From assembly GCF_000682715.1 (NCBI RefSeq), contig NZ_AWFH01000001.1:310001-374000 (forward strand): a DNA stretch of 64,000 nucleotides, given 5' to 3'. This stretch comes from Hyphomonas atlantica corrig. (GTDB lineage: Bacteria; Pseudomonadota; Alphaproteobacteria; Caulobacterales; Hyphomonadaceae). Made by a program: the position numbers and the translations under genes. Shown here piece by piece: positions 34,652-51,954 of this stretch (positions are counted from its first letter, which is position 1; every line of letters begins with the position of its first letter). The notes under the pieces are model-generated. The model was not told the DNA's origin, did not search any database, and saw only the letters and a program-made list of their open reading frames with translations.

Positions 34652-34793
34652 GGCGGAATTCACTTGAGGGCGGCGGATTGGAACGAGTGCGCCTTCTAGC
34701 GGAAATAAGTGGCTTGTGCATATTCTTCGCTGCACAATCGCGTCTTCTTACCGTTCCAAAAGTCACAGGCACAAGGCTTGCAGCTGGTTCTAC

Positions 34794-35465
34794 ATGGTTT
34801 CCATCAACCCATTCGCTTTCCATCTTGACGCTCATGTGCCGGATCACACGATTGTTCGGATCATGGATCATGCGGATGTTGACGTACACTCCAGCACGCT
34901 GAACACGGTGGATATCCAACGGCTTGCCATGCTCAAAGATGCGGGAAAGCGCCGCGATCTTGAACGCTCGCTGATCGCCGTAAAGCGGGAATTGGCGGAT
35001 CTGACGGGAAAATCCGCCTCCCAAGTAGACGTGACGCACGATAGCAAGGGTGCCCCTGCCCTTTCATCCTCACCCGGCATGCACATTTCGATTTCAAGGA
35101 CCGCTGGCTGGTCGGCCGTGGCAGTGTCGCGGCAAAATGCCTTGGGGATCGATATCGAGCATATGCGTCCCGTCGACTGGACGTCTATGCAGAACATGGT
35201 GTGTACGTCGGAGGAAACGGCATTTCTGTCCAGGCTAGGAGCTGATGCGCTCCCCGCCTTCTATCGTCTATGGACCGCAAAAGAAGCTGTGATGAAAGCC
35301 GTCGGCGAAGGATTTCGTATGGGCGCGCGCAGCCTGAGTCTTCCGAATGCGTTCCTGACAGGAGCAGAACCACACGCTCTCATTTCGACCGGACACGGAG
35401 TCTTCAGCGTAAGCTGCACTCATCATGATCATCTCATGGTCAGTTTGGCGACCGCCACAGACTAG
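34794..35465 (+). CDS. Sfp-type 4'-phosphopantetheinyl transferase (PfaE-like)
   Basis: Transfers phosphopantetheine from CoA to the serine of acyl carrier domains. 223 residues from ATG 34794; the upstream frame (to 34716) is poorly conserved and the ribosome site weak. Characteristic motifs: ISISRTAGWSAVAVS, GIDIEHMRPVDW (Mg-binding Asp and Glu) and FYRLWTAKEAVMKAVGEGF. It is the only transferase in the window and its stop overlaps that of pfaC (CTAG), so it is the evident partner that activates the two PfaA carrier domains. Confidence 0.88.
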   Translation: MVSINPFAFHLDAHVPDHTIVRIMDHADVDVHSSTLNTVDIQRLAMLKDAGKRRDLERSLIAVKRELADLTGKSASQVDVTHDSKGAPALSSSPGMHISISRTAGWSAVAVSRQNALGIDIEHMRPVDWTSMQNMVCTSEETAFLSRLGADALPAFYRLWTAKEAVMKAVGEGFRMGARSLSLPNAFLTGAEPHALISTGHGVFSVSCTHHDHLMVSLATATD

Positions 35466-38400
35466 ACCCGGTCTTCCAGAGCAAGACTGAAGGGACCAAC
35501 TTCATACACCCGAAGCCCATCACGCCACAGACTGCCACGAGCCGTAACCAGATATCCGTTTCCCCGCTCTTCAATCGAGGTGATTTCCATTACGGTTACG
35601 ACCTCTTTCTTATCGGGCGTTACCTGACCTCTATAGCTCCATTTGAAGGGTGCGCCGGTGGCTATGGTTTCGAAATGCGGACTGCTCATCCCCTGATCCA
35701 TTCCCTTGAGCAGGATGGCACGCGCAAGAAGCTGCGAGAGGGCATCGAGACCAAGTGAGCCTGGCTGAACTGGATCCTGATAAAAGTGCGCCTTGAAATA
35801 CCAGGCATGAGGATCAACCACCTGTCGCCCTCTTATCAGACCAAGCCCCGCTTCGCCGCCCTCGGCATCAAAATAGTCAACGCGGTCAAGCATGCGAAGC
35901 TGGCCACTGGGCAGGCGTTTCTCGATCCTCTTCGTCTTCACATTCTGGCCTGGTAGTTCGAACGCGTCTCGGAAATGAGGTTTGTCTGACAGGCCCGCCT
36001 GCCGCGCCAGTGCGGCAGCCGGGAAGAAACCAAACTGGGTCGTCAACTCCAGTACAGGCTCACCGCTGGCCAAGCTTACCTTCACGGCAAATGTAACAAT
36101 CGTCATTGGTCCGACACGGGAGAAAGCAGTCAGCTCACTGTCGACAACCAATGTGCCGTCTTCTGGTCTCAGTTCACGGTGAAGGACACCTTCGCCTTCC
36201 AGGTTTCGGAATTTGAGGTCCCCAGAGAGCGCGAAACCACAATGGCTGGCCAGCCAACCGCAAGGCTGCAGTGCTATCTCGGACAGAACGGCAAAAGGCA
36301 TGGCACCATTGCGATTGTCGTGGAAGTACCAGGCATGTGGTGGAATGTCATATTCCGCACGAACCCGCGCGCCTTTTTCCGGAACTCCCGGACGCGTCGA
36401 CACATCCAGAACGCGCGTCATCATATGATAGGGGTCCTGAGGCAGGCGCGGCACGATACCTTCCCGGTCGAACCGATCATACATGTCGCCGAAAGCTGCT
36501 GACGGCGCACCATTGGCGCAATCAAGCAAGGCTGCATGATCTCCACGACTCTCGCCCTGAGGGCCTGTCCGGATCGGTTGTTCAGCGACACGAGGCACCG
36601 GCCAATCCCTGCGCAAGCGCAGACCAAAGCGCGGGCAATGGAAGACCTTCTTGCCATCGGAGCTCGCCAATAAGGAGGCGTAGATTTCGGGGGCCTCGCC
36701 ATCGACGATCTCATCGATGAACACTTCATAAGTCACGTCATGATCTGCATCCGGAATGACCTGTCCCCGGCACACGAACTTCGCCATATGCCCTGGCATT
36801 GGCTCAAAGACATAGCCATCCCGTTCGGTTAGCAGGCCCGCCGCCGCTGCGTAGAACTCCAGCGTCTGAACAGCCGCCTCTGCCATCAGGGTCCCCGGCA
36901 TGCAGGGATCATTGTGGAAATGACCGTTGTAGAACCAGGCGTCCTTCGGCACATGCGCGCGAGCCTTGAGATACCCCCTGCCCCATGGGCCTCCATGTGG
37001 ATCGAACATCTCCACATCATCGAACAAGGCAAGACGATCATCAGGCAAGCGATGCGGACGAGAGCGGGCTGCTGCCAGTTCGAACCCATCACCGAAGCAG
37101 GCCCATGCATCACCAGCCCGATAGGCTGCGATATCTTCGGCAGTGAAAGCGCGCTTGCGGCTGGCGCCCTCCGCCTTGAACTCTGCAGGCTGAGCGGTTG
37201 GTGGCGCGTCCTTTGTGGCATCCCACATGACGCCTTTTCCGGACGCAAGTTCGTCATCACTGAAGAAACCAGCCTGTCCATTGCGCACCGAGAAGACGCG
37301 ACGATCACCCGCCAAACAATCGTATTGGAAGAAGAACATCCGCACGCCAGCCAATGTGGCGTGACCCGTTATCTCGATCTGGAAGCGTAGCGTTTCGCCA
37401 GGCTCCGGCAGGCCTCCGTCATGGAATGTGATTTCACACCCAAGCAGGCGGTAGACACGGTCATTCTGGTTCTTGAAGTCTGCCCCCATCCAGCCAATCA
37501 AGGTCAAATCCGCCTGGCCACTTTCAATCAGCGGCCCCGGCCTGATGCGACCGTCATGGATGAACCACTGGTCCCCAGTCAGATCCGTTTCGGTCCAGAT
37601 GACACCGGTGCTCTCCACCCCTGCTTCAGCGTCGATTCCGGTAATCCGATCCACAAGCAGCAAAGGCGGCGCTGGCAGCCGAACTTGGCGGTCGTACGTA
37701 TCCTGCTTCCTGAAGCTTTTACCAAAAAACTCCGACATTTTCTCGCGAGCAGATTTCTCAATCTCCGGATAATCCCAGTTTGGTCCCACCGGCGTACGCG
37801 GCAGCAAAGGCTCTGTACCCGCAATCACCTTGCGGGGCGGCGGTAATCGCCGGTCCGACGGAGGCGGCGCAAAGTGAACTGGCTCATCCATCGTCGCAGC
37901 GGGACTTGATGGAGGGTAGACAATATCAGAGAGCGCAGGTGCTGCGGGCATCCTGAAGGATGATGCAAGCGGGGGAACGATTGGCGGCGCGTAGGGGACC
38001 GGCCGAGTGAGTGGCCAAGCTTCGGGCCGCCTTGACGCATTGCGCCTCGCTGCGTCCAGTGCCTCCGCGACTGGCTTCATCTTGATGGCGCGCCCGTCTG
38101 CGAACAGGAATGCCGCCAACTCCGCAATCTGGGACAGGTCAGCAGATTCGATCCGGTCTGTGGCGACAGCCTTGAACTGCTTGCCTTCAAGAATGTTCGC
38201 CAGAGCCGATGTCAGTGTGTCTCGTGGGCCAAGCTCGACGAATGTTCGCACACCATCCTTCCATGCTCGCTCGACTGTGGGGGGAAAGTTTACCGTATCG
38301 ACGGCCTGCCGGGTAAGCATGTCTGCTGCCAGTTCGCTTGTGGGCTCATAGGCTGCATTGATGGCGTTGGCATAGAGACGAACGTCTTTCCCTTTATGTA

Positions 38401-41400
38401 GCTTGCGCGTGTGCAGACGCCGCCAGGTTTCTGCGAATGGTTGCATCGCCTTGGCATGGACGATGAGGTGCTGATGCATCTTCGCGCCACTGCCGGGCCC
38501 CAATGCTGCGCAAACCTGTCGGCAGGCTTCGGCCGGGCCACCAATCATGCAGTCGGTCCGCGAATAAATGATCGTGATCTCGACACCGTCATGTTGTGTG
38601 ACTTCTGCTTTTACGGCCTCAACCGGCGCCTGCACCCGCCAATTCGTCCAGTCCGCTGGAACGTTCGGTCCCCAGGCCTTTTTCGCAGTCTCGAAATCTC
38701 CTCCGATGTGACGCTCGTACATGGCCGCGTCAGAAATCTCGTCCAGCAGTGCGCCGGGATCTCGCCAGAATCCAAATGCGAACAGGGCATTGCTTTCGCC
38801 AAGCGACAGTCCGAGTGCGGCATCCGCTTTAACGCCGAGTATATCCTGCAGGAGGATCGCGTGTGCCTGGCTCAACAAGGTACCGGCGCACAATTGTTCA
38901 AATTCGCTCAGACTGGCGCGCGCCAACAATGGTGCAATCTCTTCAGCCTTGTCGAGTTTTGACAGGCGCTGACGCAATTCCGGAAATGCTGAAAGCAAGC
39001 CGCGCCCCATACGCGGATAGACGGCGGCCGATCCAGTAAACATGAAAGCCAGCTCACCTTCGGGCTTGCCCTCACCAAACTGAATGCCCTCCCCCTCGGG
39101 AATTTCATCCTGCTCCAACTGTTTTTGTACGGATTTCTGCCGCTCCCGAAGCGCGTCTTCTGTCGGCGCGAGAATTGCGATGCGGCATTTCCCTCTGCCC
39201 CCCGCCTTCCCCGATGCAATTCGACTCGCGAGCGTTGCCTTGTCCTTTCCGGCAGCCCAATACAAATATGGCGTCGGTCGCAAGGCATCCGGCACAGGCC
39301 TGGCGTCTGCAGGGCAGAAGGAGAGCGCGCCTGTACAATTCGCAGGCGTCGAGCGTGCTACAATTTCCAAGGCCTCTGGCGAACTTCGCAGATCGGGAAT
39401 TGCCCCGCCAGCCGTCAGCAATTGGCCGCGCGCGGCCAATTGCGCGTTTAGCGCCAGATCGAACACGACAGATGCACACGGAGCGACTCCAAACACTTCG
39501 TCCAAGACGCTTTCAGTAGAGGTTTGTGTTCTGGTCCAGTCAACGAACTCTAACGATCCAAAATTGTGATCCTTGGCAGACGCTGCGTCATCCGCACGCT
39601 TGAGCACTAGCGCAGCAGCCTGGTCACCCGGCTGGACCGTGACTCCAAGTTCAGCCAAAACTGATGCTCTGACCGGCTCCGCCGCGAAGTCTGCCGCCGC
39701 AACAATCACCAAATCCAGCCGCCCGCTGCCGAGCGCCTCAAGGGCGAGATCAAGCGCGGCAAGGCCGGATGCCGCTTCCGCCGACACCGAGAACCCCATA
39801 CCATGAAAATCGTGAGCGTAGGTAATGCGATTGGCCGTCATGTTCGCCATCGCCCCCAGCACTGTTGAGGCTTGTAATGGCGGCGCCACAGCGGCCTCGG
39901 CTTGCACCAGCGCATCAGAATCCGAGCGCAAGGCTGTGAGCGCAGACAGACGCTCTCTCAGCAACCAACGCGCAGAGTCCGACGCGCACCCGATTGCTGT
40001 GAAGATGCCGACGCGCTGAGGATCGACAGGTGTTACCGAGGACAGTGCCTCTTCAACGACATCCAATATCGCCAGCTGTTGCGGCTCGGCCTCAAGCAAA
40101 TCCATTGGGGGTGTGCGAGCAGCTCTGGGGTCCGCGCCAATCTTCCGGCAAGGCCCGACGGGTTTCAACGGAGAATTCATGATCCTGCGCGTCACGGCGT
40201 CCGCACCGCGATCAGTTCCGGCCATGAGACCGGTGCCGCAAATCACCACTTGTGGACGTACGGATACGGGATCGATCGGCTCTCTTTGTTTCGCATTTGG
40301 ATCATACTGATCCAGGATCAAATGGGCATTATTGCCCCCAAATCCGAAATTGCTGATCGCAGCTCGGCGGACACCGCCTTTCATTTTCCAAGGCGCGGCA
40401 TTCTGGACGACGGTGAGTCCGCCCTCCTGAACTGGTCCGATCAAGTCCCCGGCGACCGGCGTTGGCGGCAAGCTCTCACGTTTGAAAGCTTCGGTCAGCT
40501 TCAGAAGACTGGCCAGCCCAGCCGCCGTGATCAGATGCCCGGTATTTGCCTTCAATGAACCAATGGCGAGAGTCTCATTGTCGGCGAACATTTCGGTGGA
40601 TGCCTGCACTTCGACACCATCACCCGTCGGTGTCCCGGTCGCATGGCACTCCAGATAGGACACACTGGCCGGGTCCAGTCCAGCCATGTCATAGGCGCGC
40701 CGCATTGCTTCTCGCTGACCATCACCAGAAGGTGCCAGCAACCCTTTGCGTCGGCCATCATTGGACAGACCAATGCCGCGGATCACGCCATGAACCCGGT
40801 CTTTCTTGCGAACGTCAGATAAACGCTTCAAGACAACTGCCACCGCCCCCTCAGAGGGCACAAGCCCGTCCGCCCCCCTCACAAATGGACGGGATTGCCC
40901 GGTCGGACTGAGCGCTTTCAAAGCTTCGAACCCGATATGCAGGATAAGATTGTCCGCTGCGTTCACGCCCGCTACGAGCGCGCAGTCTATCGCTCCCGAC
41001 TGCAACCTGCGGCAGGCGATCTCCAGCGCATAAAGCGAGGAGGCACAAGCCGCATCAAGGGAAAAGGCCGGACCTGACAATCCCAGAACATCGGCAATCA
41101 GGTGTGGCGGAAGGGACGCGTTCAACGTCGCTCGCGGATTGTCGGCCTTCTGCCCGGCCCAGAATTCGGCTGCATGTTCCGTGTGCGCCATAGACGGATA
41201 GGACAGGTTCGCGACGAACACGCCGCCCTTCCCCTTGCGAACTTTTGGTGTGCGCGCGTCAGACCATGCGTCCAGCGCAGCGCGCAAGGTCCACCCACAA
41301 ACCGGATCAGCAAGTGCGGCTGTCTGCCAGGACTCGGAGGCGCTATCTGAACGGAGGGCAGCTTCGAACCCGTCAATGGTTCCCGACACATAAGCGCGGG

Positions 41401-41566
41401 AGAGCGCTTCCGACTCAGACAATCCCAGATGTTTGGCCGATACTGGCTCGTACACGATGCGCTTGTTGAACACGATATCGCCGAGCTCTGCCGGGCTCAT
41501 TGCGCCTGGCAAAACACACCCCTGTCCGACGATTGCGATCGGTTCGAACTGGTCTGACCTACTCAT
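35462..41566 (-). CDS. pfaC: PfaC-like polyunsaturated fatty acid synthase subunit: KS-CLF-AT-dehydratases
   Basis: 2034 residues from ATG 41566 (overlaps the ketoreductase stop, ATGA). Order: ketosynthase (about 1-430) with active Cys in DAACASS near 174, ECHATGTPTGDGVE and KANTGHL; a chain-length factor (about 440-740) with Ala in place of the Cys (SVSAEAASG); an acyltransferase (about 820-1150) with FTGSAAVYPRMGRG, GLSLGES and ELGPRDTLTSAL; a Pro-rich linker; then FabA-like hot-dog dehydratase units, including WFIHDGRIRPG, WFYNGHFHNDPCMPGTL (His), AWYFHDN and AWYFKAHFYQDPVQPGSL (His). Known marine PfaC is KS-CLF-DH-DH with the AT on a separate PfaB; here that AT lies within the chain. Works with PfaA, the ketoreductase and PfaD to build unsaturated long chains. 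Confidence 0.93.
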   Translation of the reverse strand: MSRSDQFEPIAIVGQGCVLPGAMSPAELGDIVFNKRIVYEPVSAKHLGLSESEALSRAYVSGTIDGFEAALRSDSASESWQTAALADPVCGWTLRAALDAWSDARTPKVRKGKGGVFVANLSYPSMAHTEHAAEFWAGQKADNPRATLNASLPPHLIADVLGLSGPAFSLDAACASSLYALEIACRRLQSGAIDCALVAGVNAADNLILHIGFEALKALSPTGQSRPFVRGADGLVPSEGAVAVVLKRLSDVRKKDRVHGVIRGIGLSNDGRRKGLLAPSGDGQREAMRRAYDMAGLDPASVSYLECHATGTPTGDGVEVQASTEMFADNETLAIGSLKANTGHLITAAGLASLLKLTEAFKRESLPPTPVAGDLIGPVQEGGLTVVQNAAPWKMKGGVRRAAISNFGFGGNNAHLILDQYDPNAKQREPIDPVSVRPQVVICGTGLMAGTDRGADAVTRRIMNSPLKPVGPCRKIGADPRAARTPPMDLLEAEPQQLAILDVVEEALSSVTPVDPQRVGIFTAIGCASDSARWLLRERLSALTALRSDSDALVQAEAAVAPPLQASTVLGAMANMTANRITYAHDFHGMGFSVSAEAASGLAALDLALEALGSGRLDLVIVAAADFAAEPVRASVLAELGVTVQPGDQAAALVLKRADDAASAKDHNFGSLEFVDWTRTQTSTESVLDEVFGVAPCASVVFDLALNAQLAARGQLLTAGGAIPDLRSSPEALEIVARSTPANCTGALSFCPADARPVPDALRPTPYLYWAAGKDKATLASRIASGKAGGRGKCRIAILAPTEDALRERQKSVQKQLEQDEIPEGEGIQFGEGKPEGELAFMFTGSAAVYPRMGRGLLSAFPELRQRLSKLDKAEEIAPLLARASLSEFEQLCAGTLLSQAHAILLQDILGVKADAALGLSLGESNALFAFGFWRDPGALLDEISDAAMYERHIGGDFETAKKAWGPNVPADWTNWRVQAPVEAVKAEVTQHDGVEITIIYSRTDCMIGGPAEACRQVCAALGPGSGAKMHQHLIVHAKAMQPFAETWRRLHTRKLHKGKDVRLYANAINAAYEPTSELAADMLTRQAVDTVNFPPTVERAWKDGVRTFVELGPRDTLTSALANILEGKQFKAVATDRIESADLSQIAELAAFLFADGRAIKMKPVAEALDAARRNASRRPEAWPLTRPVPYAPPIVPPLASSFRMPAAPALSDIVYPPSSPAATMDEPVHFAPPPSDRRLPPPRKVIAGTEPLLPRTPVGPNWDYPEIEKSAREKMSEFFGKSFRKQDTYDRQVRLPAPPLLLVDRITGIDAEAGVESTGVIWTETDLTGDQWFIHDGRIRPGPLIESGQADLTLIGWMGADFKNQNDRVYRLLGCEITFHDGGLPEPGETLRFQIEITGHATLAGVRMFFFQYDCLAGDRRVFSVRNGQAGFFSDDELASGKGVMWDATKDAPPTAQPAEFKAEGASRKRAFTAEDIAAYRAGDAWACFGDGFELAAARSRPHRLPDDRLALFDDVEMFDPHGGPWGRGYLKARAHVPKDAWFYNGHFHNDPCMPGTLMAEAAVQTLEFYAAAAGLLTERDGYVFEPMPGHMAKFVCRGQVIPDADHDVTYEVFIDEIVDGEAPEIYASLLASSDGKKVFHCPRFGLRLRRDWPVPRVAEQPIRTGPQGESRGDHAALLDCANGAPSAAFGDMYDRFDREGIVPRLPQDPYHMMTRVLDVSTRPGVPEKGARVRAEYDIPPHAWYFHDNRNGAMPFAVLSEIALQPCGWLASHCGFALSGDLKFRNLEGEGVLHRELRPEDGTLVVDSELTAFSRVGPMTIVTFAVKVSLASGEPVLELTTQFGFFPAAALARQAGLSDKPHFRDAFELPGQNVKTKRIEKRLPSGQLRMLDRVDYFDAEGGEAGLGLIRGRQVVDPHAWYFKAHFYQDPVQPGSLGLDALSQLLARAILLKGMDQGMSSPHFETIATGAPFKWSYRGQVTPDKKEVVTVMEITSIEERGNGYLVTARGSLWRDGLRVYEVGPFSLALEDRV

Positions 41567-43020
41567 CCTGCCCACTCATCCCCGATCAGAAGCTCAACTT
41601 CACTTCGTTCACCCTGTAGAATTTGATCAGCGAAGATACGTGCGCCATCTTCCAGGCCGATCAGGGAAATACCGCGCGAAGCAAAATGACCTGCGAGAGA
41701 CGAGTCGACCATGCCGCCAGCCCAAGGCCCCCAGCAAAAGCTCTTCACAATGGCGTCAGGCAAATCGGCAGAGAGCTTTCTCGCCATCGCGCCCAACCAG
41801 GCATTCGCCATAGCGTAGTCACTCTGTCCGACATTTCCGAATACGGCCGATGCGGACGAGAAAAGGCCCACATGGCGGAGCTGTGATAGATCGATAGCCT
41901 CTAGCAACATGGCCAAGCCTTCAACCTTCGGCCCGAAAACATACGCGACATCTTCGCGGGATTTCTTGAGAGCCAGCCCATCCGACAGCACCCCTGCCCC
42001 GTGGACGAGCCCTGTAATGGAGCCATACTGTTGTGAGACTTTCGCAATGGCGGACTGGATACTCGCACGATCTGACATGTCGGTGCGTAAATACACTGCT
42101 TGCGCGCCGGACATCGAAATATCGTCCAGCGTCTCTCGAATCTCCTGACCCGCCAGCAGAGCTTTCGCCTGTCGATCGACGTCCGGAAGCGATGGCGTCT
42201 GACCGCTCGCGCGAGCGACCGAAATCAGCGCCCCGCGCAACTGTTTCATGTCGCTTGTAACGTCCATCCCTTCTGGCCACGAGACAATGTCTGAGCGGCC
42301 CGCGAGCACAAACACTGAGCCGGACTGTCTGCGAGCGAGCTCTTTCACACACGCCGCGGTTACGCCGCGCGCACCGCCTGGAACGAACCAGACATTTGAC
42401 GCTTCGACGACGGCTCGGCTCAATCGAGGTGCTTGGTTAATTGCTTGAATGGCCGCTCCCTGCCGTGTCAAAACCGCGTCAGACAAATCGGTACCCAGAG
42501 CGGTCGTTACCAATTCGGCCCACCCAGTTACGCGTTCGCCAGCGGGCAAACTCCACGTCACCACATCATGGTTCGGCCATTCCTGACGCAAAGTTCGCGA
42601 CAGTCCAGGCAGCCCACACAATTGATCAGCAGCCGCCTCAGAAGACGGCTCCAACATGATTATCCGAACACCGCGGTCATGAAACTGCCGACACAGATTC
42701 AAGGCCTGCCAATGCCGTTCCGTGACAGGAAGACCTGAATGCCCTTCCGTGAGGATGACAGTGCGAAAGTCATCAGATGCCTCGCCCAAAATCCCAGACT
42801 GCGCACCTTGCGACTGCAGGAACTCGACAAGGGCATATGCAAGCTCCGGCGCCGCACCCGATACTGCGAACGGCCCCTGCGCAGCGATATCGATAACCCT
42901 GCTGAAGGGCTGTGATGCGCCGAGTGAAACGACACGTACTGAACTTTCATAGTCCGGAACCGAACCGGCCTGAGGGCCGGGACGGGAGAGCGCAACTGGC
43001 GCTCCGCCGCCCCCTACCCA
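41563..43020 (-). CDS. Ketoreductase domain read in the -1 frame of pfaA (likely joined by frameshift)
   Basis: SDR ketoreductase of the PKS/PUFA type: cofactor motif FVPGGARGVTAAC, VHGAGVLSDGLALKK, catalytic serine in GLFSSASAVFGN and tyrosine in GQSDYAMANAWLGAMA. The frame is open from 43026 to the stop at 41563, yet has no ATG or GTG at all; the first possible start is a TTG at 42789, about 75 codons inside a protein-like region (RVVSLGASQPFSRVIDIAA). Here I give the 485 residues that would follow a -1 shift at the T7 run, first codon TGG at 43020. In homologous PfaA proteins this KR is in the same chain as the ACPs. Alternatives: a sequencing or true one-base loss in T7, or a non-standard start. 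Confidence 0.8.
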   Translation of the reverse strand, partial: WVGGGGAPVALSRPGPQAGSVPDYESSVRVVSLGASQPFSRVIDIAAQGPFAVSGAAPELAYALVEFLQSQGAQSGILGEASDDFRTVILTEGHSGLPVTERHWQALNLCRQFHDRGVRIIMLEPSSEAAADQLCGLPGLSRTLRQEWPNHDVVTWSLPAGERVTGWAELVTTALGTDLSDAVLTRQGAAIQAINQAPRLSRAVVEASNVWFVPGGARGVTAACVKELARRQSGSVFVLAGRSDIVSWPEGMDVTSDMKQLRGALISVARASGQTPSLPDVDRQAKALLAGQEIRETLDDISMSGAQAVYLRTDMSDRASIQSAIAKVSQQYGSITGLVHGAGVLSDGLALKKSREDVAYVFGPKVEGLAMLLEAIDLSQLRHVGLFSSASAVFGNVGQSDYAMANAWLGAMARKLSADLPDAIVKSFCWGPWAGGMVDSSLAGHFASRGISLIGLEDGARIFADQILQGERSEVELLIGDEWAG

Positions 43021-43026
43021 AAAAAA
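42979..43026 (-). promoter_or_regulatory. Predicted -1 programmed ribosomal frameshift signal in pfaA
   Basis: On the minus strand: slippery T-TTT-TTT (43026-43020; 0-frame codons GAT TTT TTT GGG TAG), a 6-base spacer GGGTAG holding the pfaA stop, then a hairpin. Inner stem GAGCGC (43004-42999) with GCGCTC (42993-42988) and loop CAGTT; outer stem 43013-43005 with 42987-42979. In all 15 positions: 12 Watson-Crick pairs, two G-U pairs, one C-C mismatch. Heptamer, spacer and stem fit the known X-XXY-YYZ -1 signals. It would fuse PfaA residue 1303 to the KR frame. Confidence 0.6.
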
Positions 43027-46000
43027 TCAGCGATCGCCCGGATCGTGCGCAAGTCGGCAAGAACCTCTGGATCGACTTCCGGCAATTCCGGGTGCTGATC
43101 GCGCAGCGCGGACAAGATTTCCACCTGTTTGATCGAATCGACCCCAAGCTCGCCCTCAAGGTCCATGTCATCTTCCAGCATGTCTTCCGGATAGCCGGTC
43201 TTCTCCGCAATCAATGCCCGGACTGTATCGGCGGAAATGCCGCCATTGGCCGCGCCCCTTTCCGGCTCCGACACACTCACAGTCGCCGCAGCTGGGGCCG
43301 CCGCTCCCGTGCCGGATGCATCAATCATTTCAGCAATTGCCGAAATCGTGCGCAATTCAACAAGCTGCTCAGGGTCGATTTCCGGGAGGTCCGGCATGCG
43401 CTCTCTCAGCGTAGAAAGAATCTCCACCTGCTTGATCGAGTCGACGCCGAGTTCGCCCTCCAGATCCATGTCCGGTTCAAGCATATCCTCCGGATACCCC
43501 GTCTTCTCTGCAATTATCGCGCGGACCAGGCCAACCGAATCTGCCCCCAGTACCGGCTGCGTGACTGCAGGCGCTGCCACGGGCGCAGGACTGGCAGGTT
43601 TCGGCGCCGGAGCACTTTCTGGAACCGGTCCGGGTTCAGGTGCTGGCTCGGGCGCGTCCTCATGATAGGCCCCATTGGCTTGCGACTGAACGACAGGAGA
43701 TGGCGCAGCAACGGGCGCCGGCTTCGGTGCTGGAGCAGGCGCGGGCAACGCGGCTGGCTTTGCCGGCTCGCTCGGCGTTTGTCCGGCAAGTTGAACCGCG
43801 ACATTCAGAAATGCCGAATGCGCCGTCGACATGGCTGACATATAATCTGCGTGGCGTTGGGAAACTTCCTGCATGATACGCTCAGTGGTCGAAGCGGGTG
43901 CTGCAAGTGCGGAACTTTGTACCGAAGCGAAATACGGGCTCGGTGCTGACGGATCTTGGGTCATGAAAGCGCCTGTCTGTTCTGGAAGGTCTTGAGCAGC
44001 CGGACGTGGTGAAACACCAGCCCGGACCGAAGGAGGAGCGGATGATTCCGCCATGGTGGATTTCGTGGGCATCGCTGGCTTTTCGGGGTTCGGTGTCGCG
44101 CGCCCCTCAGCGCCTTTGGCCGGCGGATACGGCTTGTTGTAATTGCCGCCAGTGATCTTCACTGCATGCTTGGACGGAGCTGGATTGGGCGGTTGTGGCG
44201 GAAGTTCAGCAAACAGCGCCGGATAGTCGAGCTCGATTCCTGCTACGCCCAACGTAGCAATCGCGAGCAGGAACTGGTTCACCCCATTGCGCCGCTTGTG
44301 GTCCAGCGAAATGGCGAGATGAGGCCGATCACCCAATGTATGACCGACGAGACCTGTCACGACGCCGCCTGGACCGACTTCGACGAAAACCCTTGCTCCG
44401 TCCGCGTACATGGCCTCAACCTGCTCACGGAAACGCACCGGCTGGATCAGCTGGTCGGCGATGAATGCCGGCAATTCGGCGACTTTCGCATCATACTTCC
44501 GGGCGGTGGCATTCGCATAAACATCAAGTTTCGGCGCGCGGAGCTTCTGCTTAGCAAGCAGCTTTTCAAAAGGCGGCACCGCCTCTGCGACAATCTCGGA
44601 ATGGAAGGCGGTGGCCACCGGAAGCATCCGCGCCTTAAGGCCTCGCGCGTCGCATTCCGCCTTGGCCGCATCAACTGCCTCCTGCGCACCTGAGAGGACG
44701 ACTTGGTCCGGACCATTATCATTGGCGAGCACCAAGCCCTGCCCCACTTTTTGCAGTACGGGTTTGATCGTTTCTGCATCCGTCTGAACCGCAAGCATCG
44801 CGCCCTTGGTGTTGCCAGCTGCCTTCGCCATCAGGGCGCCGCGCTCCGCCGCAACTGTCAGCGCAGTGTCAGCATTCATTACGCCGCCAAGGTGCAACGC
44901 CATGATTTCCCCGAAACTGTGCCCGGCGGCCATGTCTGCTTTGAGGTCGAGCTGCGATAGCAGCCCCAATTGCGAGAGCGCGACCGCCGCGATGGCGGGC
45001 TGGGCATGCTGCATCTCTGTCAGAGTCTGCGTTTGAGCGCCGAAGTCTACTTGATCAAAGGCGGCAGGTGGAAAGGACAGTCGATCCAACCGCAACCTGC
45101 CGGTATGTTTGTGACCAGCCGCCCTGTCCCATGCTTCACGCGCCAAAGGGAAGGCCATCGCCAGATCAGAACCCATGCCGACATACTGACTACCCTGGCC
45201 AGAAAACATGAAAGCAGTTTTGCCAGTCAACGGCGCGTCCAGCGAGGCAACGCAATCAGCCTTGAACGGACGGACACCGATCTCGCCAGCCCTGATCTGC
45301 TGGGACAGGCTTTCTGTTTTTGACTTCAGATCCGCCAGAGACTCAGCAATGATTGCTGCGCGCGCCGGAGCGTCGGCCCTGAAGGCAGCGTGCGTTTGCG
45401 ATGCGGCGTACGCCAGCCCGGCTTCGTCTAGCTGACCAGGGGTAGCCTCAATCGCGGAGGCAAGCGCATTGCCCGAATCCTCACTGAACAGAAACAGCTC
45501 TGCTGGCATCACCCGATAAGGCTTCGCCGCTGTCTTGCCGATATACTCCTCCAGCGTCACATGGAAATTGCTTCCGCCAAATCCGAATGAACTGACAGAC
45601 GCGCGGCGCGGGCGCTTTTTGGGCGCAATCCAGGGGCGAGCCTCGGTGTTCAGGTAGAAGGCTGGGCTATCCTTGATGACTTCCGCAGGTTCTTCGATCT
45701 TGATTGTAGGCGGAAGGATTTTACGACTGAGCGCATTCACGACTTTGACAAGACTGGCGGCGCCGGCGGCGGCCTTCGTATGTCCGATCTGGGACTTGAT
45801 GGACCCAAGCGCACACCAAGGCGCTTCAGACTCAACCTCACCGAAAACCAGATGCAGTCCATCCAGCTCAGCCTTGTCACCGGCTTTCGTCCCGGTGCCA
45901 TGCCCTTCAACCAGGTCTACGGCCTCCGGGCCGTACCCCGCTTGCTCATAGGCACGCCTCAAGGCGCGCGCCTGCCCTTCTGGCACCGGCGCATAAATGG

Positions 46001-46928
46001 CTGTGCCTTTACCATCTGATCCACCGCCAAGTCCCCGGATCACCGCATGGATCGTGTTGCCATCGCGTTCCGCATCTTCGAGGCGGCGCAGCGCCAGCAT
46101 GCCGATCCCTTCACCAAGCATGGTGCCATCGGCTTCGTTCGAGAACGGCCGGCAGTCACCTGTTGGCGACAAGGCCGGCGTTTTTGAAAAGCACATATAC
46201 ATCAGGATGTCATTGAGCGCGTCGACGCCACCAGTCAGCACCGTGTCGCTGTCGCCCGAGCGCAGTTCATGCAACGCGATGCTCAGTGCAGAAAGACTTG
46301 AGGCACATGCCGCGTCGGTGACCATGTTGCTGCCGCCAAGATCAAACCTGTTGGCAATCCGTCCGGCTACGACGTTTCCGAGCAGTCCCGGAAATGTCGC
46401 TTCCTGCCATTCGACATAGTGGCTTTCGATCCGCTCGGCGAGCGCAGTGACTTCACTTTCCGGCAGTCCGGCTTCGCGCATGGCATTGACCCAGACCGGC
46501 CGTTGGAGACGACCTGCCATATGCGCCGTCAACTCGGTAGCAGACGCTACACCCAAGACTACGCTCGTACGAGATTTGTCGATCCGACCCTCGCTATCAC
46601 GCTCAATATCCTGAAGCGTCGCATATGCCGCGACCAGCGCCAGCAACTGTGCTGTATCCGTCCCCTCCATCGCCTTTGGAGGGATACCGAAGGTCAGCGG
46701 ATCGAAAGCGACAGGATCAATGAACCCGCCCCGCCTGCCATAAGTCTTGTCCTTCGTCCTCGGATCACTGTCATAATAGTCTTCGGTCAGCCAATGCGTG
46801 GACGGCACATCCGACAGCAAGTCGCGTCCCTCGAACACATCACGCCAGAACCCGGTCACATCCCCGCGCCCTGGGAAGATCGCGCCCATGCCTACAATGG
46901 CAATCGGTGTGGCGGCTTTTGAACTCAT
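43014..46928 (-). CDS. pfaA: PfaA-like synthase subunit: KS-AT-ACP-ACP
   Basis: 1304 residues (ATG 46928; AAGGTC ahead). A modular iterative synthase: KS (about 5-470; active Cys in VTDAACASSLSAL, His in EGHGTGTKAGD and KSQIGHTKAAA), malonyl-type AT (about 575-870; FMFSGQGSQYVGMG, AAGHSFGE, FVEVGPGG), a long Pro/Ala/Ser-rich linker, and two near-identical ACPs with LGVDSIKQVEIL (phosphopantetheine serines S1164 and S1265). It stops directly after the second ACP. Marine EPA/DHA PfaAs carry 4-9 ACPs and a KR in the same chain; here only two ACPs are seen and the KR follows in the -1 frame. Starts 27 bases after pfaD. Confidence 0.93.
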   Translation of the reverse strand: MSSKAATPIAIVGMGAIFPGRGDVTGFWRDVFEGRDLLSDVPSTHWLTEDYYDSDPRTKDKTYGRRGGFIDPVAFDPLTFGIPPKAMEGTDTAQLLALVAAYATLQDIERDSEGRIDKSRTSVVLGVASATELTAHMAGRLQRPVWVNAMREAGLPESEVTALAERIESHYVEWQEATFPGLLGNVVAGRIANRFDLGGSNMVTDAACASSLSALSIALHELRSGDSDTVLTGGVDALNDILMYMCFSKTPALSPTGDCRPFSNEADGTMLGEGIGMLALRRLEDAERDGNTIHAVIRGLGGGSDGKGTAIYAPVPEGQARALRRAYEQAGYGPEAVDLVEGHGTGTKAGDKAELDGLHLVFGEVESEAPWCALGSIKSQIGHTKAAAGAASLVKVVNALSRKILPPTIKIEEPAEVIKDSPAFYLNTEARPWIAPKKRPRRASVSSFGFGGSNFHVTLEEYIGKTAAKPYRVMPAELFLFSEDSGNALASAIEATPGQLDEAGLAYAASQTHAAFRADAPARAAIIAESLADLKSKTESLSQQIRAGEIGVRPFKADCVASLDAPLTGKTAFMFSGQGSQYVGMGSDLAMAFPLAREAWDRAAGHKHTGRLRLDRLSFPPAAFDQVDFGAQTQTLTEMQHAQPAIAAVALSQLGLLSQLDLKADMAAGHSFGEIMALHLGGVMNADTALTVAAERGALMAKAAGNTKGAMLAVQTDAETIKPVLQKVGQGLVLANDNGPDQVVLSGAQEAVDAAKAECDARGLKARMLPVATAFHSEIVAEAVPPFEKLLAKQKLRAPKLDVYANATARKYDAKVAELPAFIADQLIQPVRFREQVEAMYADGARVFVEVGPGGVVTGLVGHTLGDRPHLAISLDHKRRNGVNQFLLAIATLGVAGIELDYPALFAELPPQPPNPAPSKHAVKITGGNYNKPYPPAKGAEGRATPNPEKPAMPTKSTMAESSAPPSVRAGVSPRPAAQDLPEQTGAFMTQDPSAPSPYFASVQSSALAAPASTTERIMQEVSQRHADYMSAMSTAHSAFLNVAVQLAGQTPSEPAKPAALPAPAPAPKPAPVAAPSPVVQSQANGAYHEDAPEPAPEPGPVPESAPAPKPASPAPVAAPAVTQPVLGADSVGLVRAIIAEKTGYPEDMLEPDMDLEGELGVDSIKQVEILSTLRERMPDLPEIDPEQLVELRTISAIAEMIDASGTGAAAPAAATVSVSEPERGAANGGISADTVRALIAEKTGYPEDMLEDDMDLEGELGVDSIKQVEILSALRDQHPELPEVDPEVLADLRTIRAIADFFG
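43017..43532 (-). repeat. Tandem ACP-coding repeat
   Basis: Two direct copies of a 213-base carrier-domain unit, at 43320-43532 (ACP1) and 43017-43229 (ACP2), 303 bases apart (101 codons between the phosphopantetheine serines). The encoded segments share EKTGYPEDMLE-x-DMDLEGELGVDSIKQVEIL. It probably arose by internal duplication; such repeats tend to vary in copy number. Confidence 0.85.
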
Positions 46929-46955: not shown

Positions 46956-48473
46956 TCAGAGAAACCTTTTTGGCGTGCAGGAGAACGCAGTGGGCGGCAC
47001 AGCAATGCCTGCAGCGCGCATTTGCCCTGCTCGCGTCAATCGTGCCGCACCTTCCATCAGATTCAGGGCGATCTGGCGAACCGTCCGGTTCTCGATTGGC
47101 TCCAGAAATGTGCCAGCGACCCATTCATTGAATGCGCCCTGGGCTGGCCCGCACCAGATCTGATAGTCCGAGGCCTTGTCGGCCACACCCTCACGCGCCC
47201 ATTGTGCGCCCATGAACAGATAGCGACGCGCCACGAGCGCCAGCCGCTTGTTCCCATCCGCCTCAGCGCGCGCCGCTTCCTTCGGGTTTGATTGCAGCAT
47301 GAAGGCTCGTGTCTTCTGCCAGACATCGTCAAATGGCTCGCCCAATACGTCTTCCAGCCAGGCCCGATCCTTCTGTGTCATCGTTTCGAACGACAAGCCC
47401 GCCTTGTAGAGCGCGTGCAGTTTGCGCCCCCGCATGGCGAACAAGGTTCCGCGCTTCAGCACCTGCACCTCGACGCCCTGTTCGAACATGTCCGCTGCCG
47501 GAGCCATCCCGACATCGGCTGGCCCGGCCTTGGCAAGCAATTGTCGCGCAGGTTCGGACAAACCCGACTCGATAGCCGCCTGATTGATTGATCCGGTCAG
47601 GACATAGGCTGCGCCCATCTGGAACGCCGCCGCTACGCCGTGCGGTGTGGCAATGCCGCCGCCCAGGCCGATACGGATCATGTTCGCATCGATACCGGTT
47701 TCCGCGGCTACTTGATCACGCGCGATAGACAGAGATGAAAACAAGGGCGCCGCGGCGCGGTTGTCGGTGTGACCACCGCTATCCGCCTCAGCCGTGAGGT
47801 CGAGCGCGACAGGAACCTGCGCCGCAAGTTCGGCCTGCTCCGGCGATATGCGATTTTCTGATACCAGCGCGCGCAGAATTTTCTCTGGCGCAGGCTGCAT
47901 GAATTGCCGCGCGACTTCAGCGCGCGATACTTTCGCGAAAACATGATTGGCGCGCCGGATGCTGCCTTGCCCGTCCCTGGACAAGCCAAGCGCTGTGTAT
48001 CGGACGACTTCTGGCGACAAACGCATATAGGCTGACGCCGAAACGCGCCTGACGCCCATCGACAGGAACAAGTCCACGACTTCTGCTTCGTAGCCCGGCT
48101 GTTGGGGTGAATGAATCAGATTCGCACCCCAAGAGGTTTGCCCCTGCGCAATGCCTGCCTTGATTTCCTGTATGCCCGCCTGAATCGTGTCGGGCTTCAG
48201 TCCGGCGCTGCCATAGAACCCGACACATCCTGCCCGAACGGCTTCGATAACCATCCTGGGCGTGGCTATGCCCCGCGCCATTTCGCCGACGACATAGTTG
48301 AACCGCGCACCATGCGCCTGTGCAAACGCCGCGTCTCCCAGCCATTCCGGATAGATCGCAGGCAGAGATAAAGATCGCGCATCTGCCGACTTCGCAACCA
48401 GCACGCCATTCTGGACATGCACGTCCACATTCTCGCGAACGCAGTCCAGAATCTGATCCACCGACCGATCCAT
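46956..48473 (-). CDS. pfaD: PfaD-like trans-acting enoyl reductase
   Basis: FMN TIM-barrel enoyl reductase of the 2-nitropropane-dioxygenase family. 505 residues from ATG 48473 (AGGAAGG 5 bases upstream); longer frame to 48569 is not conserved. PfaD-specific marks: HSPQQPGYEAEVVDLFLSMGVRRVSASAY, GLGGGIATPHGVAAAFQMGAAYVLTGSINQAA, APAADMFEQGVEVQVLKRGTLFAMRGRKLHALY and DYQIWCGPAQGAFNEWV. First gene of the Pfa transcript (pfaD-pfaA-KR-pfaC), transcribed from the AT-rich region upstream. Confidence 0.95.
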   Translation of the reverse strand: MDRSVDQILDCVRENVDVHVQNGVLVAKSADARSLSLPAIYPEWLGDAAFAQAHGARFNYVVGEMARGIATPRMVIEAVRAGCVGFYGSAGLKPDTIQAGIQEIKAGIAQGQTSWGANLIHSPQQPGYEAEVVDLFLSMGVRRVSASAYMRLSPEVVRYTALGLSRDGQGSIRRANHVFAKVSRAEVARQFMQPAPEKILRALVSENRISPEQAELAAQVPVALDLTAEADSGGHTDNRAAAPLFSSLSIARDQVAAETGIDANMIRIGLGGGIATPHGVAAAFQMGAAYVLTGSINQAAIESGLSEPARQLLAKAGPADVGMAPAADMFEQGVEVQVLKRGTLFAMRGRKLHALYKAGLSFETMTQKDRAWLEDVLGEPFDDVWQKTRAFMLQSNPKEAARAEADGNKRLALVARRYLFMGAQWAREGVADKASDYQIWCGPAQGAFNEWVAGTFLEPIENRTVRQIALNLMEGAARLTRAGQMRAAGIAVPPTAFSCTPKRFL

Positions 48474-48945
48474 AAAGCCTTCCTGCCTATCACCCCCGAA
48501 TTCTTCGGGATTCGATCCATTCTCAACGTCAACATGACGCCCGGCATTTGTGATTGCGAACCGAACCACTCCCCAGCGTCTTACAGTCTCCGAGACAGCC
48601 GAAGCTCTCTCCCTCCGACGTTCATTCTATAGCAGCAATTACAGAACGCAACCTGAAATAGAGTTTTTTTAAAATTCTATTCTTGGTTAATTTTTGTGGG
48701 GTGATACACGCAGAAGGTGCAGTTTATTGACATGCAAGACCGGGGCCACAGTCGATCCTCGTATTCACCATAGAAATGACACGAAATCAGGTTTTTGAGG
48801 CAAAAATGGGCGTCGTCAGGGAACTTATCAGTCTGTACCACGTCCCCAATTGGGACGCCGAAGTGATCCGAACGCTATCGCCTTCACCGCTCGCATGGTA
48901 GGTGAGCAGAGGACTGCCTCGATTAAGGCAAAGGGACAAATTCAC
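48474..48945. promoter_or_regulatory. Divergent intergenic region between pfaD and the retropepsin gene
   Basis: 472 bases without a recognised gene. It includes the AT-richest stretch of the window (48655-48700), with an inverted repeat AATAGA (48657-48662) / TCTATT (48676-48681) enclosing a T7A4 tract. The likely pfaD promoter and that of the plus-strand module lie here, but I cannot assign exact hexamers. A short plus-strand frame from 48850 runs into the retropepsin gene; I take it as an upstream extension, not a gene. Confidence 0.5.
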
Positions 48946-49473
48946 GTGAAGTATTTCAGATCTATCGTGGCCGCGATGGCCCTTCTGTCATTGCCCGCAA
49001 TGTCAGCCTCCGCTGACAGCAGCGACCGGACCGACGACCCGGTAACCATGGGCTATGTCGAGAACGTATATGTCGGAAAACTTGGCCTTGAGATGAAAGG
49101 CAAGCTGGATACGGGTGCCGATTCCAGCTCGGTGTTTGCACGCGATGTTCACATCTACAACAAATCCGGCAAGGACGACTGGGTTCGCTTCCGGCTTGTC
49201 GGCAAGAATGGGCGCACCGTCCGATACGATCAGAATGTTCGGCGTTTCGCGCTTATCAAATTGAAAAAGGGCGGAACCATCAGACGCCCTGTGATTCACT
49301 TACCGCTATGCATCGGCGGCGTAAGCGGCCTGGCGGAAGTCAATCTGGCTGACCGGGAAGAATTCGAATACGATTTCCTTGTAGGACGCGAATTCATGGC
49401 GTCCCGTGTGCTTGTCGATTCCGCCTCGACGTTCATTGCTCCTGGCAGCTGCGAAACAGAAGACCGTGAATAG
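48946..49473 (+). CDS. Secreted retropepsin-like aspartic protease (PF05618-type, RimK-associated)
   Basis: 175 residues from GTG 48946 (AAGGGA upstream), which starts a signal peptide (IVAAMALLSLPAMSASA). The one-lobe aspartic protease motif LDTGADSSSVFA is at about residue 55, followed by strands and a C-terminal LVGREFMASRVLVDSAS. These proteins are labelled 'ATP-dependent zinc proteases' but look like retropepsins. First of three plus-strand genes that often co-occur: protease, 7TM protein, RimK-like ligase. It overlaps the next gene by 8 bases. Target unknown. Confidence 0.85.
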   Translation: MKYFRSIVAAMALLSLPAMSASADSSDRTDDPVTMGYVENVYVGKLGLEMKGKLDTGADSSSVFARDVHIYNKSGKDDWVRFRLVGKNGRTVRYDQNVRRFALIKLKKGGTIRRPVIHLPLCIGGVSGLAEVNLADREEFEYDFLVGREFMASRVLVDSASTFIAPGSCETEDRE

Positions 49474-50998
49474 CTTTACCCATACCCGATTACTTGCCCT
49501 GGTTCTGGCCGCCATTGGCCTTGGCATCTTCGCGACGAAAGTGCTTCAGCACGATTATCCGCTGACCCCCGGCCTGCAGACCACAACTTGGGATTTCGAG
49601 ATCTATCTCGACTTCGACACGAGCAACCAGCCAGTTCGGCTGGAAACCTTTGTTCCCTCGAACAGCGAAAATCGCCGCGTATCGCAGGAACAGTTCTACA
49701 ACGGTGCTTTCGGATTGAGGCTGAATGGCCGCAATGATGAGGGTCGGACCGCCATCTGGACGTATCGTTATCCGAATGACCGGAAGGTGCTTCGATACCG
49801 TGCGCGCCTGCTCGGTGAGACTGTTGAAAGCCCCCTTCCCGACGACATGCGCCGAAAACTGCGCCGCGCCGCGCCTGAGGCAGAAAATGACCTTGAGCGA
49901 CAGGCTTTCCTGGTGTGGTCCACGGACTTGCGCCGGCGCTCAGCCGATGACGAGTCTCTCGCAGATCTCGTTCTGGAAGAGATCTTCGTGGACGGGGATG
50001 TCGATGAAGTCGACGCCCTGCTATCGCCAGCCCTGCCGCGCCCAATCGCACGCCTTGCGCTTGCCCGCGATGTCTTGACCAGTCAGGGTATCCCTGCCCG
50101 CGTGGCGAATGGCGTATTCCTGGATTCTGCGCGCCGCCGGGCAGAAATCCGGCATTGGCTCGAATATCATGCGGATGGCGTTGACCGCCGTTACTTCCCA
50201 GGTCCGGATCCGCAGGAATTCTTCACGATCTGGCATGGCACCAAGGATTTCATCCGAGCGGAAGGCATCTCCGATCTCGACCTGCAAGTCAGCATCCAGC
50301 CCGTCAATGCCGCTGTCGCGGATGTGGTGCAACGTGTCGCCAAGGACGAAGGCTCGGCGATGCAATGGTTCTCGTTCAATCGCCTGCCGATCACCACGCA
50401 ACTTGTCTATCAGGTTCTGGTGACCATTCCGGTGGGCATTCTGATGTTGGTCTTCCTCCGCCAGTTCATTGGCCTCCAGACCCTCGGCACATTCATGCCT
50501 GTCCTGATCGGCATTGCGTTCCGCGAAACGGCGCTCGTCAACGGAGTCATCCTGTTCACGGCGCTCATCGCGCTGGGACTCGCCGTGCGTTTCTATCTGG
50601 AAAAGTTGAAGTTGCTGCTGGTCCCACGATTGGCGACCGTTGTCGTGTTTATTGTTATCTGTATGGCCGTTATCGCGCAGATCATGAACAATAGCGGCCA
50701 GCGCATCGGCCTTTCAATATCGCTGTTCCCAATGGTCATTCTGACGATGACGATCGAGCGCATGTCGATTGCCTGGGAAGAATACTCGGCCACCGAAGCC
50801 ATCAAGCAAGGCATCGGCAGCCTGATGGTCGCTGCGGCGTCTTACCTCGTCATGACCAACACGCATGTCGAGTATCTGATGTTCAACTTCCCTGAACTGC
50901 TTCTCGTGATCATGGCGATCTGCCTGCTGATGGGTAAATATACCGGATTGCGCCTCAGTGAACTGATCCGGTTCCGCGAGTTGGACACACGCAAATGA
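49466..50998 (+). CDS. 7TM protein with inactive transglutaminase-like N-terminal domain
   Basis: 510 residues from GTG 49466, which overlaps the end of the protease gene. After one N-terminal membrane anchor (RLLALVLAAIGLGIFAT), residues about 35-300 form a periplasmic region that includes a transglutaminase-like fold without the catalytic cysteine (LARDVLTSQGIPARVANGVFLD). About seven membrane helices then fill 320-500 (PVGILMLVFLRQFIG, LVNGVILFTALIALGLAVRF, TVVVFIVICMAVIAQI, IGSLMVAAASYLVMT, LLLVIMAICLLMG). A member of the trio with the retropepsin and RimK-like ligase; probably a transporter or anchor for the ligase product. Confidence 0.85.
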   Translation: MNSFTHTRLLALVLAAIGLGIFATKVLQHDYPLTPGLQTTTWDFEIYLDFDTSNQPVRLETFVPSNSENRRVSQEQFYNGAFGLRLNGRNDEGRTAIWTYRYPNDRKVLRYRARLLGETVESPLPDDMRRKLRRAAPEAENDLERQAFLVWSTDLRRRSADDESLADLVLEEIFVDGDVDEVDALLSPALPRPIARLALARDVLTSQGIPARVANGVFLDSARRRAEIRHWLEYHADGVDRRYFPGPDPQEFFTIWHGTKDFIRAEGISDLDLQVSIQPVNAAVADVVQRVAKDEGSAMQWFSFNRLPITTQLVYQVLVTIPVGILMLVFLRQFIGLQTLGTFMPVLIGIAFRETALVNGVILFTALIALGLAVRFYLEKLKLLLVPRLATVVVFIVICMAVIAQIMNNSGQRIGLSISLFPMVILTMTIERMSIAWEEYSATEAIKQGIGSLMVAAASYLVMTNTHVEYLMFNFPELLLVIMAICLLMGKYTGLRLSELIRFRELDTRK

Positions 50999-51954
50999 TC
51001 GGACGGTATCGGGCTCTACGGAAGGCTGGGCTGCTCGGCATCAACGAGCGCAATGTCCGCCTCGTGAATGAGCTCAACCCGCGGCGACTGATCCGTCTGG
51101 TAGACGACAAGCGCGAGACCAAACGTCTCGCCAACGCGGCAAACATCCCCACGCCGGAGCTTTATGGCGTGATCGCCAACCCGTTCCATATGCGCCATCT
51201 GGAGTCTTATCTGGACAAGCCTGATGGTGTGGTTATCAAGCCTGCCAACGGCTCTCAGGGGAACGGGATACAGGTGTTGATGGAGCCGATGCGGGGCGGT
51301 TGGCGCCGGTCGAACGGCCAGCGCGCCCTTCTGGAAGACATCCGCTTCCACGTGAACAATATCCTGTCTGGCATGTATAGCCTCAGCGGCCAGCCGGACG
51401 TGGCCATGTTCGAGTATCGGGTAAAATTCGACGAAATCTTCAATCCGATCTCATTCGGCGGTGTGCCAGACATCCGCATCATTGTCGTGCGCGGCATTCC
51501 TGCCGTTGCGATGGTGCGCCTGCCAACCGCAGAGTCGGATGGCAAAGCGAACCTGCACAAGGGTGGCGTGGGCGTTGGACTGGATCTGGTCACAGGCAAG
51601 ACGCTGAGCGGTATGCAGAACGGCAAGACCACAGACATACATCCTGATACCGCGAACCCGCTGCGTAATTTCTCGGTTCCGCATTGGGATACGATGCTGG
51701 AAATGGCCTCGAAGGCGTACGATGTGACGGGGCTCGGTTATCTCGGCGCAGACATTGTTCTGGACAAGACAAAGGGACCGCTTCTTCTGGAGCTGAATGC
51801 ACGGCCGGGGCTCGCCATTCAGATTGCGAACCGGATCGGCATTCGCCCACTACTCAAGGCGACACTGGAAGCAGATACCGAAGGATTGGATGCACTCGGT
51901 CGGGTAGAGCTTGCCCGCAAGCTGTACCGAAGCCATGTGCCCGAACCGATCTGA
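50995..51954 (+). CDS. RimK-like ATP-grasp alpha-L-glutamate ligase homolog
   Basis: 319 residues, coupled to the 7TM gene (ATGA). Contains the ATP-grasp fold: DKRETKRLANAANIPTPELYG, VVIKPANGSQGNGIQVL, FEYRVKFDEIFNPISFGGVPDIRIIVVRGIP, then LHKGGVGVGLDLVTGKT and the Mg-binding LLLELNARPGLAIQIANRIG. Homologs join amino acids, often glutamate, to peptide or protein carboxyl ends. With the retropepsin and 7TM genes it forms a conserved set thought to add and process peptide tags outside the cytoplasm (inference). Ends exactly where the Anbu module begins (TGATCA). Confidence 0.88.
   Translation: MIGRYRALRKAGLLGINERNVRLVNELNPRRLIRLVDDKRETKRLANAANIPTPELYGVIANPFHMRHLESYLDKPDGVVIKPANGSQGNGIQVLMEPMRGGWRRSNGQRALLEDIRFHVNNILSGMYSLSGQPDVAMFEYRVKFDEIFNPISFGGVPDIRIIVVRGIPAVAMVRLPTAESDGKANLHKGGVGVGLDLVTGKTLSGMQNGKTTDIHPDTANPLRNFSVPHWDTMLEMASKAYDVTGLGYLGADIVLDKTKGPLLLELNARPGLAIQIANRIGIRPLLKATLEADTEGLDALGRVELARKLYRSHVPEPI

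Follow-up and report, generated by a model that had tools for sequence, protein, structure and literature searches.

Well-supported −1 ribosomal frameshifts are few among the non-mobile genes of bacteria. In dnaX of Escherichia coli, a slippery heptamer of the X_XXY_YYZ form (A_AAA_AAG), with a hairpin about 6 nt behind it, yields the two subunit forms tau and gamma, of which the slip produces the shorter. In insertion sequence (IS) elements of the orfA-orfB type, the slip adds a downstream catalytic domain encoded in the −1 frame; U_UUU_UUC is used there and is among their more efficient heptamers (PMC4066793). In E. coli, both U_UUU_UUC and U_UUU_UUU give more than 0.10% frameshifting without stimulators, and stimulatory structures usually start 5-8 nt downstream of the heptamer (PMC4066793).

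In the synthases for polyunsaturated fatty acids (PUFA), the ketoreductase (KR) is found in two arrangements. PfaA of Azospirillum lipoferum 4B and other Proteobacteria carries it at the end of a single uninterrupted frame. In the Type D pfa clusters of Aureispira, Psychroflexus and Persicobacter, the KR is encoded apart from pfaA and the AT is fused to a PfaC-like protein. A KR on a separate chain is workable in principle, as these clusters indicate: Aureispira marina has its own KR gene, and in E. coli its pfa genes direct the synthesis of arachidonic acid (PMC4882568).

Here we describe marine bacteria, Hyphomonas and its relatives, in which the PUFA enzyme gene pfaA is divided between two frames. 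We concluded that a programmed −1 ribosomal frameshift signal very likely lies in pfaA between the last ACP and the KR; there are no protein or RNA data, and the efficiency of the slip and the amounts of the two forms are unknown. The signal resembles that of dnaX in its X_XXY_YYZ heptamer, in a hairpin about 6 nt behind it, in the prediction of two forms and in its non-mobile gene; unlike in dnaX, the slip would yield the longer form, the heptamer is U_UUU_UUY and no Shine-Dalgarno-like stimulator was seen to be conserved upstream of it. As in IS elements, a downstream catalytic domain would be added from the −1 frame, but pfaA is a biosynthetic megasynthase gene of a pfa cluster and is not mobile. 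The Type D clusters share the KR encoded apart from pfaA and the AT in a PfaC-like protein. Their KR genes are described as separate, with the KR on its own polypeptide, whereas the KR frame of the Hyphomonas family lacks a conserved start and is predicted to depend on the slip, its conservation favouring a fused chain. A. lipoferum 4B and other Proteobacteria have orthologous domains in the same order, with about 50% identity over KS-AT-ACP and the gene for a PfaC-like protein after pfaA; in contrast, pfaA of A. lipoferum 4B has neither a T6 or A6 run nor a junction signal.

Gene layout and architecture of the junction

The window, by which we mean the whole analysed stretch of 64,000 nt, is part of a 3.6-Mb alphaproteobacterial genome. 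On its − strand, the order is pfaD, pfaA, the KR frame and a PfaC-like KS-AT-DH gene, with a phosphopantetheinyl transferase gene on the opposite strand. The 0 frame of pfaA (43014..46928, −) encodes a KS-AT-ACP-ACP protein of 1304 aa ending in RTIRAIADFFG, with Pfam matches to KS, AT and two PP-binding stretches, and scored 1016.9 bits against TIGR02813 (omega_3_PfaA), above the curated cut-off of 1010.1. The KR domain (Pfam KR, PF08659, 6e-30) is encoded in the −1 frame by 487 codons and a stop (41563..43026, −). Because the 0 frame and the KR frame align to separate stretches of TIGR02813, 7-950 and 1984-2267 respectively, we regard them as one gene in two frames.

Upstream of pfaA is the gene of a PfaD-type enoyl reductase of 537 aa (46956..48569, −; TIGR02814, 539 bits, cut-off 449). 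The PfaC-like KS-AT-DH protein of 2037 aa, identified by profile matches (35462..41575, −), has a FabA-like DH in three stretches, and its start overlaps the KR stop. Its AT is a PfaB-family/AT stretch spanning roughly residues 838-1146, with scores below the cut-off. The 4′-phosphopantetheinyl transferase gene (34716..35465, +; PF01648), which would fill the PfaE role, is convergent with the pfa genes. Adjoining the cluster at 49406-51954 (+) are a gene for a 7TM inactive-transglutaminase protein and one for a sugar-transfer-associated ATP-grasp protein.

The last codons of pfaA are GAT TTT TTT GGG TAG, read on the − strand. The heptamer T_TTT_TTT (43020..43026, −) lies in the phase for a −1 slip, within the codons GAT TTT TTT, and is followed by a 6-nt spacer, GGGTAG (43014..43019, −), that includes the 0-frame stop at 43016-43014. 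A TGA of the −1 (KR) frame (43027..43029, −) abuts the heptamer, leaving zero open KR-frame codons upstream at this locus. Since this TGA lies upstream and the TAG downstream, the frame switch is confined to the 10 bases 43026-43017, TTTTTTTGGG. The −1 frame has 487 open codons, from 43026 to 41566. Its first ATG or GTG comes no earlier than codon 124, and the first codon that could serve as a start is the TTG at codon 80. Fusion would give 1301 + 487 = 1788 residues. Nowhere else in the window does a long frame combine an in-phase X_XXY_YYZ in its last 15 codons with a −1 frame that stays open for more than 18 codons. No conserved Shine-Dalgarno-like motif was seen by eye 6-17 nt upstream of the heptamer, where the sequence varies (ATCCGGGCGATCGCTGA, ATCCGGAAGATCGCCGA and ATCAGAAAGATCGCTGA).

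The predicted stimulatory hairpin (42979..43013, −) consists of 7 bp, a C.C mismatch, 7 bp and a 5-nt loop. It has 14 pairs, two of them G.U, and a fold energy of −29.7 kcal/mol for a 48-nt stretch. A 46-nt segment at 43010-42965, taking in most of this hairpin and a second small one, had a z score of −3.9. The second hairpin, at 42965-42978 (−) in the region of CCGGCCCTCAGGCCGG, lies 3′ of the main hairpin and is present only in the closest relatives.

Most of what the original prediction had said of this junction held: the codons at the 0-frame end with their heptamer, a hairpin starting six bases on, a full KR in a −1 frame without an upstream ATG or GTG, and a fused product of about 1788 residues with the KS-AT-ACP-ACP-KR order of single-chain PfaA. 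Two counts were corrected, since the 15 paired positions it gave included the C.C mismatch and the open frame it put at 485 codons measured 487. It had missed the TGA against the T run.

An alternative is that the hairpin is an attenuator or terminator and not a frameshift stimulator. In favour of this, the T run is preceded by a weak 5-bp stem, which lies in the window 5′ of the conserved hairpin. However, the weak stem is not conserved, and no Rfam 15 family matched the junction at the gathering score. The conserved hairpin cannot itself be an intrinsic terminator in the direction of pfaA because it sits 3′ of the T run. We consider this alternative all but excluded.

Conservation of the split and its signal in the Hyphomonas family

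Of the 42 genomes of the genus, 40 had the KR; in the family as a whole it was present in 57 of 105. This gave 55 readable pfaA-KR junctions in three genera, after exclusion of two loci cut by contig ends. All 55 had an in-phase T_TTT_TT[T/C] followed by one codon and a stop, so that the spacer was always NNN plus TAG, TAA or TGA. The KR was open in the −1 frame in 54 of them, and KR identity to the window fell as low as about 37% among these split relatives.

Three loci stood apart. In the exceptional genome, G012, a 32-nt deletion near base 4660 of the locus (L073) removes the 3′ arm of the hairpin and puts the KR out of the −1 frame, with heptamer and stop intact; assembly error or decay are both possible causes. 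In G028 (L090) the hairpin is rearranged and pfaA is broken upstream. The KR and T6C signal of G241 (L056), a member of genus g2, group with Hyphomonas and away from the other g2 genomes, and horizontal transfer of the cluster is the likely reason.

A lost T, real or misread, had been named as the main rival in the original prediction, which would have been refuted by close relatives with eight T and one continuous frame. If real, the loss would be recent and pfaA a pseudogene. A lost T could be suspected from the homopolymer run and from the visible damage close to the site in L073. The same split occurs in 55 independent assemblies, single-contig genomes included, which rules out this explanation; none of the 55 loci had T8 or a continuous frame, and heptamer, stop and split were kept throughout. 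The invariant KR motifs are also intact, and purifying selection is strong. Error or pseudogene formation is thus all but excluded.

To measure selection on the slip codons, columns were counted back from the slip site through the last ACP region, where 50 were conserved in at least 80% of 54 loci. Synonymous variation was zero in only two of the 50, the pair that the slip requires: GAT (53/53) and TTT as the first Phe codon (54/54), against a median entropy of 1.07 bits in the other conserved columns. In the rest of pfaA, TTT makes up 27% of the Phe codons and GAT 39% of the Asp codons. In two genomes the Asp is replaced with the T retained (AAT in G168, GGT in G748). The second Phe codon was TTT in 37 and TTC in 17 of the 54 loci, with at least 3 changes on the well-supported KR tree. 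This T/C variation would be tolerated at the Z base because the slip does not need the last base of the second Phe codon. As the loci are related, the raw counts do not represent independent events, a problem that leaves the contrast among neighbouring codons of the same loci unaffected.

Of the 55 loci, 54 had a hairpin that started 6 nt 3′ of the heptamer. Its outer six pairs were standard in all 26 distinct alignment rows, the fourth pair appearing as G-C, A-U or G-U and the fifth as C-G, U-G or U-A. The inner helix diverges strongly between clades, yet its pairing is kept, and 10 of the 14 pairs had changed on both sides. Cells with both sides changed numbered 47, compared with 16.4 ± 4.2 after shuffling, and none of 500 shuffles reached as high a value. 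When the partner was slid by 1-3 bases, pairing fell from 81% to 52-61%; the 81% is an underestimate because the inner helix is offset by one base in genus g2. Relatedness inflates the shuffle test and affects the slide control less. The comparison shows selection on the heptamer and its phase, on the stop two codons later, on the 6-nt spacer and on the hairpin.

Transcriptional slippage, in which RNA polymerase would add or drop bases at the T run so that some mRNAs become continuous, is another way to join the frames. The run is a homopolymer, and an A10 run, a typical length for transcriptional slippage, is found at the same junction in two distant loci. However, T8 or longer was found in no family locus, and the exact phase and the hairpin at 6 nt, with its compensatory changes, suit the geometry of the ribosome. 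Slippage driven by T7, the second rival originally put forward, is weakened because 17 of the 55 loci have only T6 followed by C, with the ribosomal heptamer intact. We therefore hold slippage to be very unlikely; only cDNA could exclude it.

Coding evidence and start codons in the KR frame

Codons 18-79 of the KR frame precede any possible start at the window locus. Substitutions in them were mostly at the third position: 19, 10 and 34 changes at positions 1, 2 and 3 for the comparison with G027, 24/19/38 and 18/17/41 for other pairs, and 324/196/696 for all 37 pairs. This comparison shows protein coding in the KR frame from immediately 3′ of the hairpin onwards.

These results bear on the possibility that the KR is made as a separate protein through termination-reinitiation or internal initiation, as in Type D of the Bacteroidota. 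In support of it, apart from the workable A. marina arrangement, the pfaA stop of Persicobacter is followed 8 nt 3′ by a GTG, the coupled-start counterpart to a frameshift, and L077-L081, which form one clade, have an in-frame ATG at KR codon 19, directly 3′ of the hairpin. A separate KR chain from that ATG is possible in this clade. Against it, no start is conserved: at any KR column, ATG, GTG or TTG was present in at most 26 of 53 loci, and a Shine-Dalgarno-like motif ahead of the earliest possible start was found in one of the 53 and missing in 52. Selection at the protein level also acts on codons upstream of the starts, the first in the window being the TTG at codon 80, and reinitiation leaves the frozen GAT TTT codons unexplained. 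A separate KR is thus very unlikely as the general explanation.

Proposed mechanism and pfaA outside the family

In the frameshift model, inferred from established −1 frameshifting, a tRNA-Phe would sit in each of the P and A sites, paired with UUU UUY, while the ribosome pauses at the base of the hairpin. Both tRNAs would move back by one base to pair with UUU UUU, after which translation would go on in the KR frame. Slipping ribosomes would produce KS-AT-ACP-ACP-KR of 1788 aa with the junction IADFFWVGGG, and those that do not slip would terminate one residue later, giving KS-AT-ACP-ACP of 1304 aa with a clean end at the ACP. We infer that this KR-less chain, ending one residue past the ACP, is likely to be stable. 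The most likely use, again an inference, would be a PUFA synthase in which PfaA chains with and without the KR occur in a set mix, similar to the two subunit forms of dnaX. A ratio of two forms set by frameshifting, as originally proposed, is therefore plausible, with the reservation that the sequence cannot give the efficiency. A constitutive slip of high efficiency, resulting in a simply fused enzyme, is possible and has not been excluded.

If the model is true, gene finders would split one enzyme of the Hyphomonas family into two genes, the annotated pfaA expressed alone in a heterologous host would lack the KR, and the proportion of chains with and without a KR could be tested as a variable of PUFA synthesis. 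In the open-access literature (subscription papers were outside the search), no paper linked pfaA, PUFA synthase or ketoreductase to frameshifting, and the literature searched held no description of a frameshift in a fatty-acid or polyketide megasynthase, in agreement with the original claim for PUFA synthases. Neither fatty-acid synthases nor Hyphomonas are named in the main text, as distinct from the supplements, of a 2013 survey of reading-frame transitions (PMC3711429), and a pfaA or PUFA-synthase frameshift is not named in the searched part of a review (PMC5009743). Within this literature, the mechanism is known, and the gene and enzyme class are likely to be new to it.

Beyond the family, KS-AT-ACP-ACP-KR is the domain order of continuous PfaA. 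A continuous PfaA-KR was seen in two genomes from a different family of the same order (L058, L059), in two further families of the class (L115, L116) and in A. lipoferum 4B (L145; one frame of 1773 codons), and T6 at the junction was absent from all of them. Because every split locus with the signal belongs to one family, we infer one evolutionary origin of the split. The simplest history, and a likely one, is that continuity was lost once in the family ancestor and that the signal has maintained the split since.

The KR lies in the −1 frame directly after the last ACP in three further proteobacterial loci, distant and mutually unrelated, with one genome each. L134 (G797) and L132 (G853) have an A10 run at the ACP/KR junction (4170-4240 and 4500-4600, respectively), and L131 (G763) has an in-phase C_CCA_AAG heptamer at about 5083-5110 (reverse). 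Relatives of these loci, sought as a test of convergence, were not near enough in any case; the nearest, G926, is continuous. Convergent recoding and assembly errors are both possible. A bolder reading, that recoding has repeatedly arisen at the ACP/KR boundary of PUFA synthases and that a regulated scarcity of KR among mixed PfaA chains would be a general, dnaX-like stoichiometric device shaping product or flux, seems unlikely.

Searches for split relatives found none in E. coli, and on plasmids only top matches below 60% identity. Two of the plasmid matches were examined: one was from Azospirillum and continuous, and the other, plasmid pPP1 of Persicobacter psychrovividus (Bacteroidota), was split: its KR occupies a −1 frame that overlaps pfaA, and no heptamer is present (L144:6347-6500).
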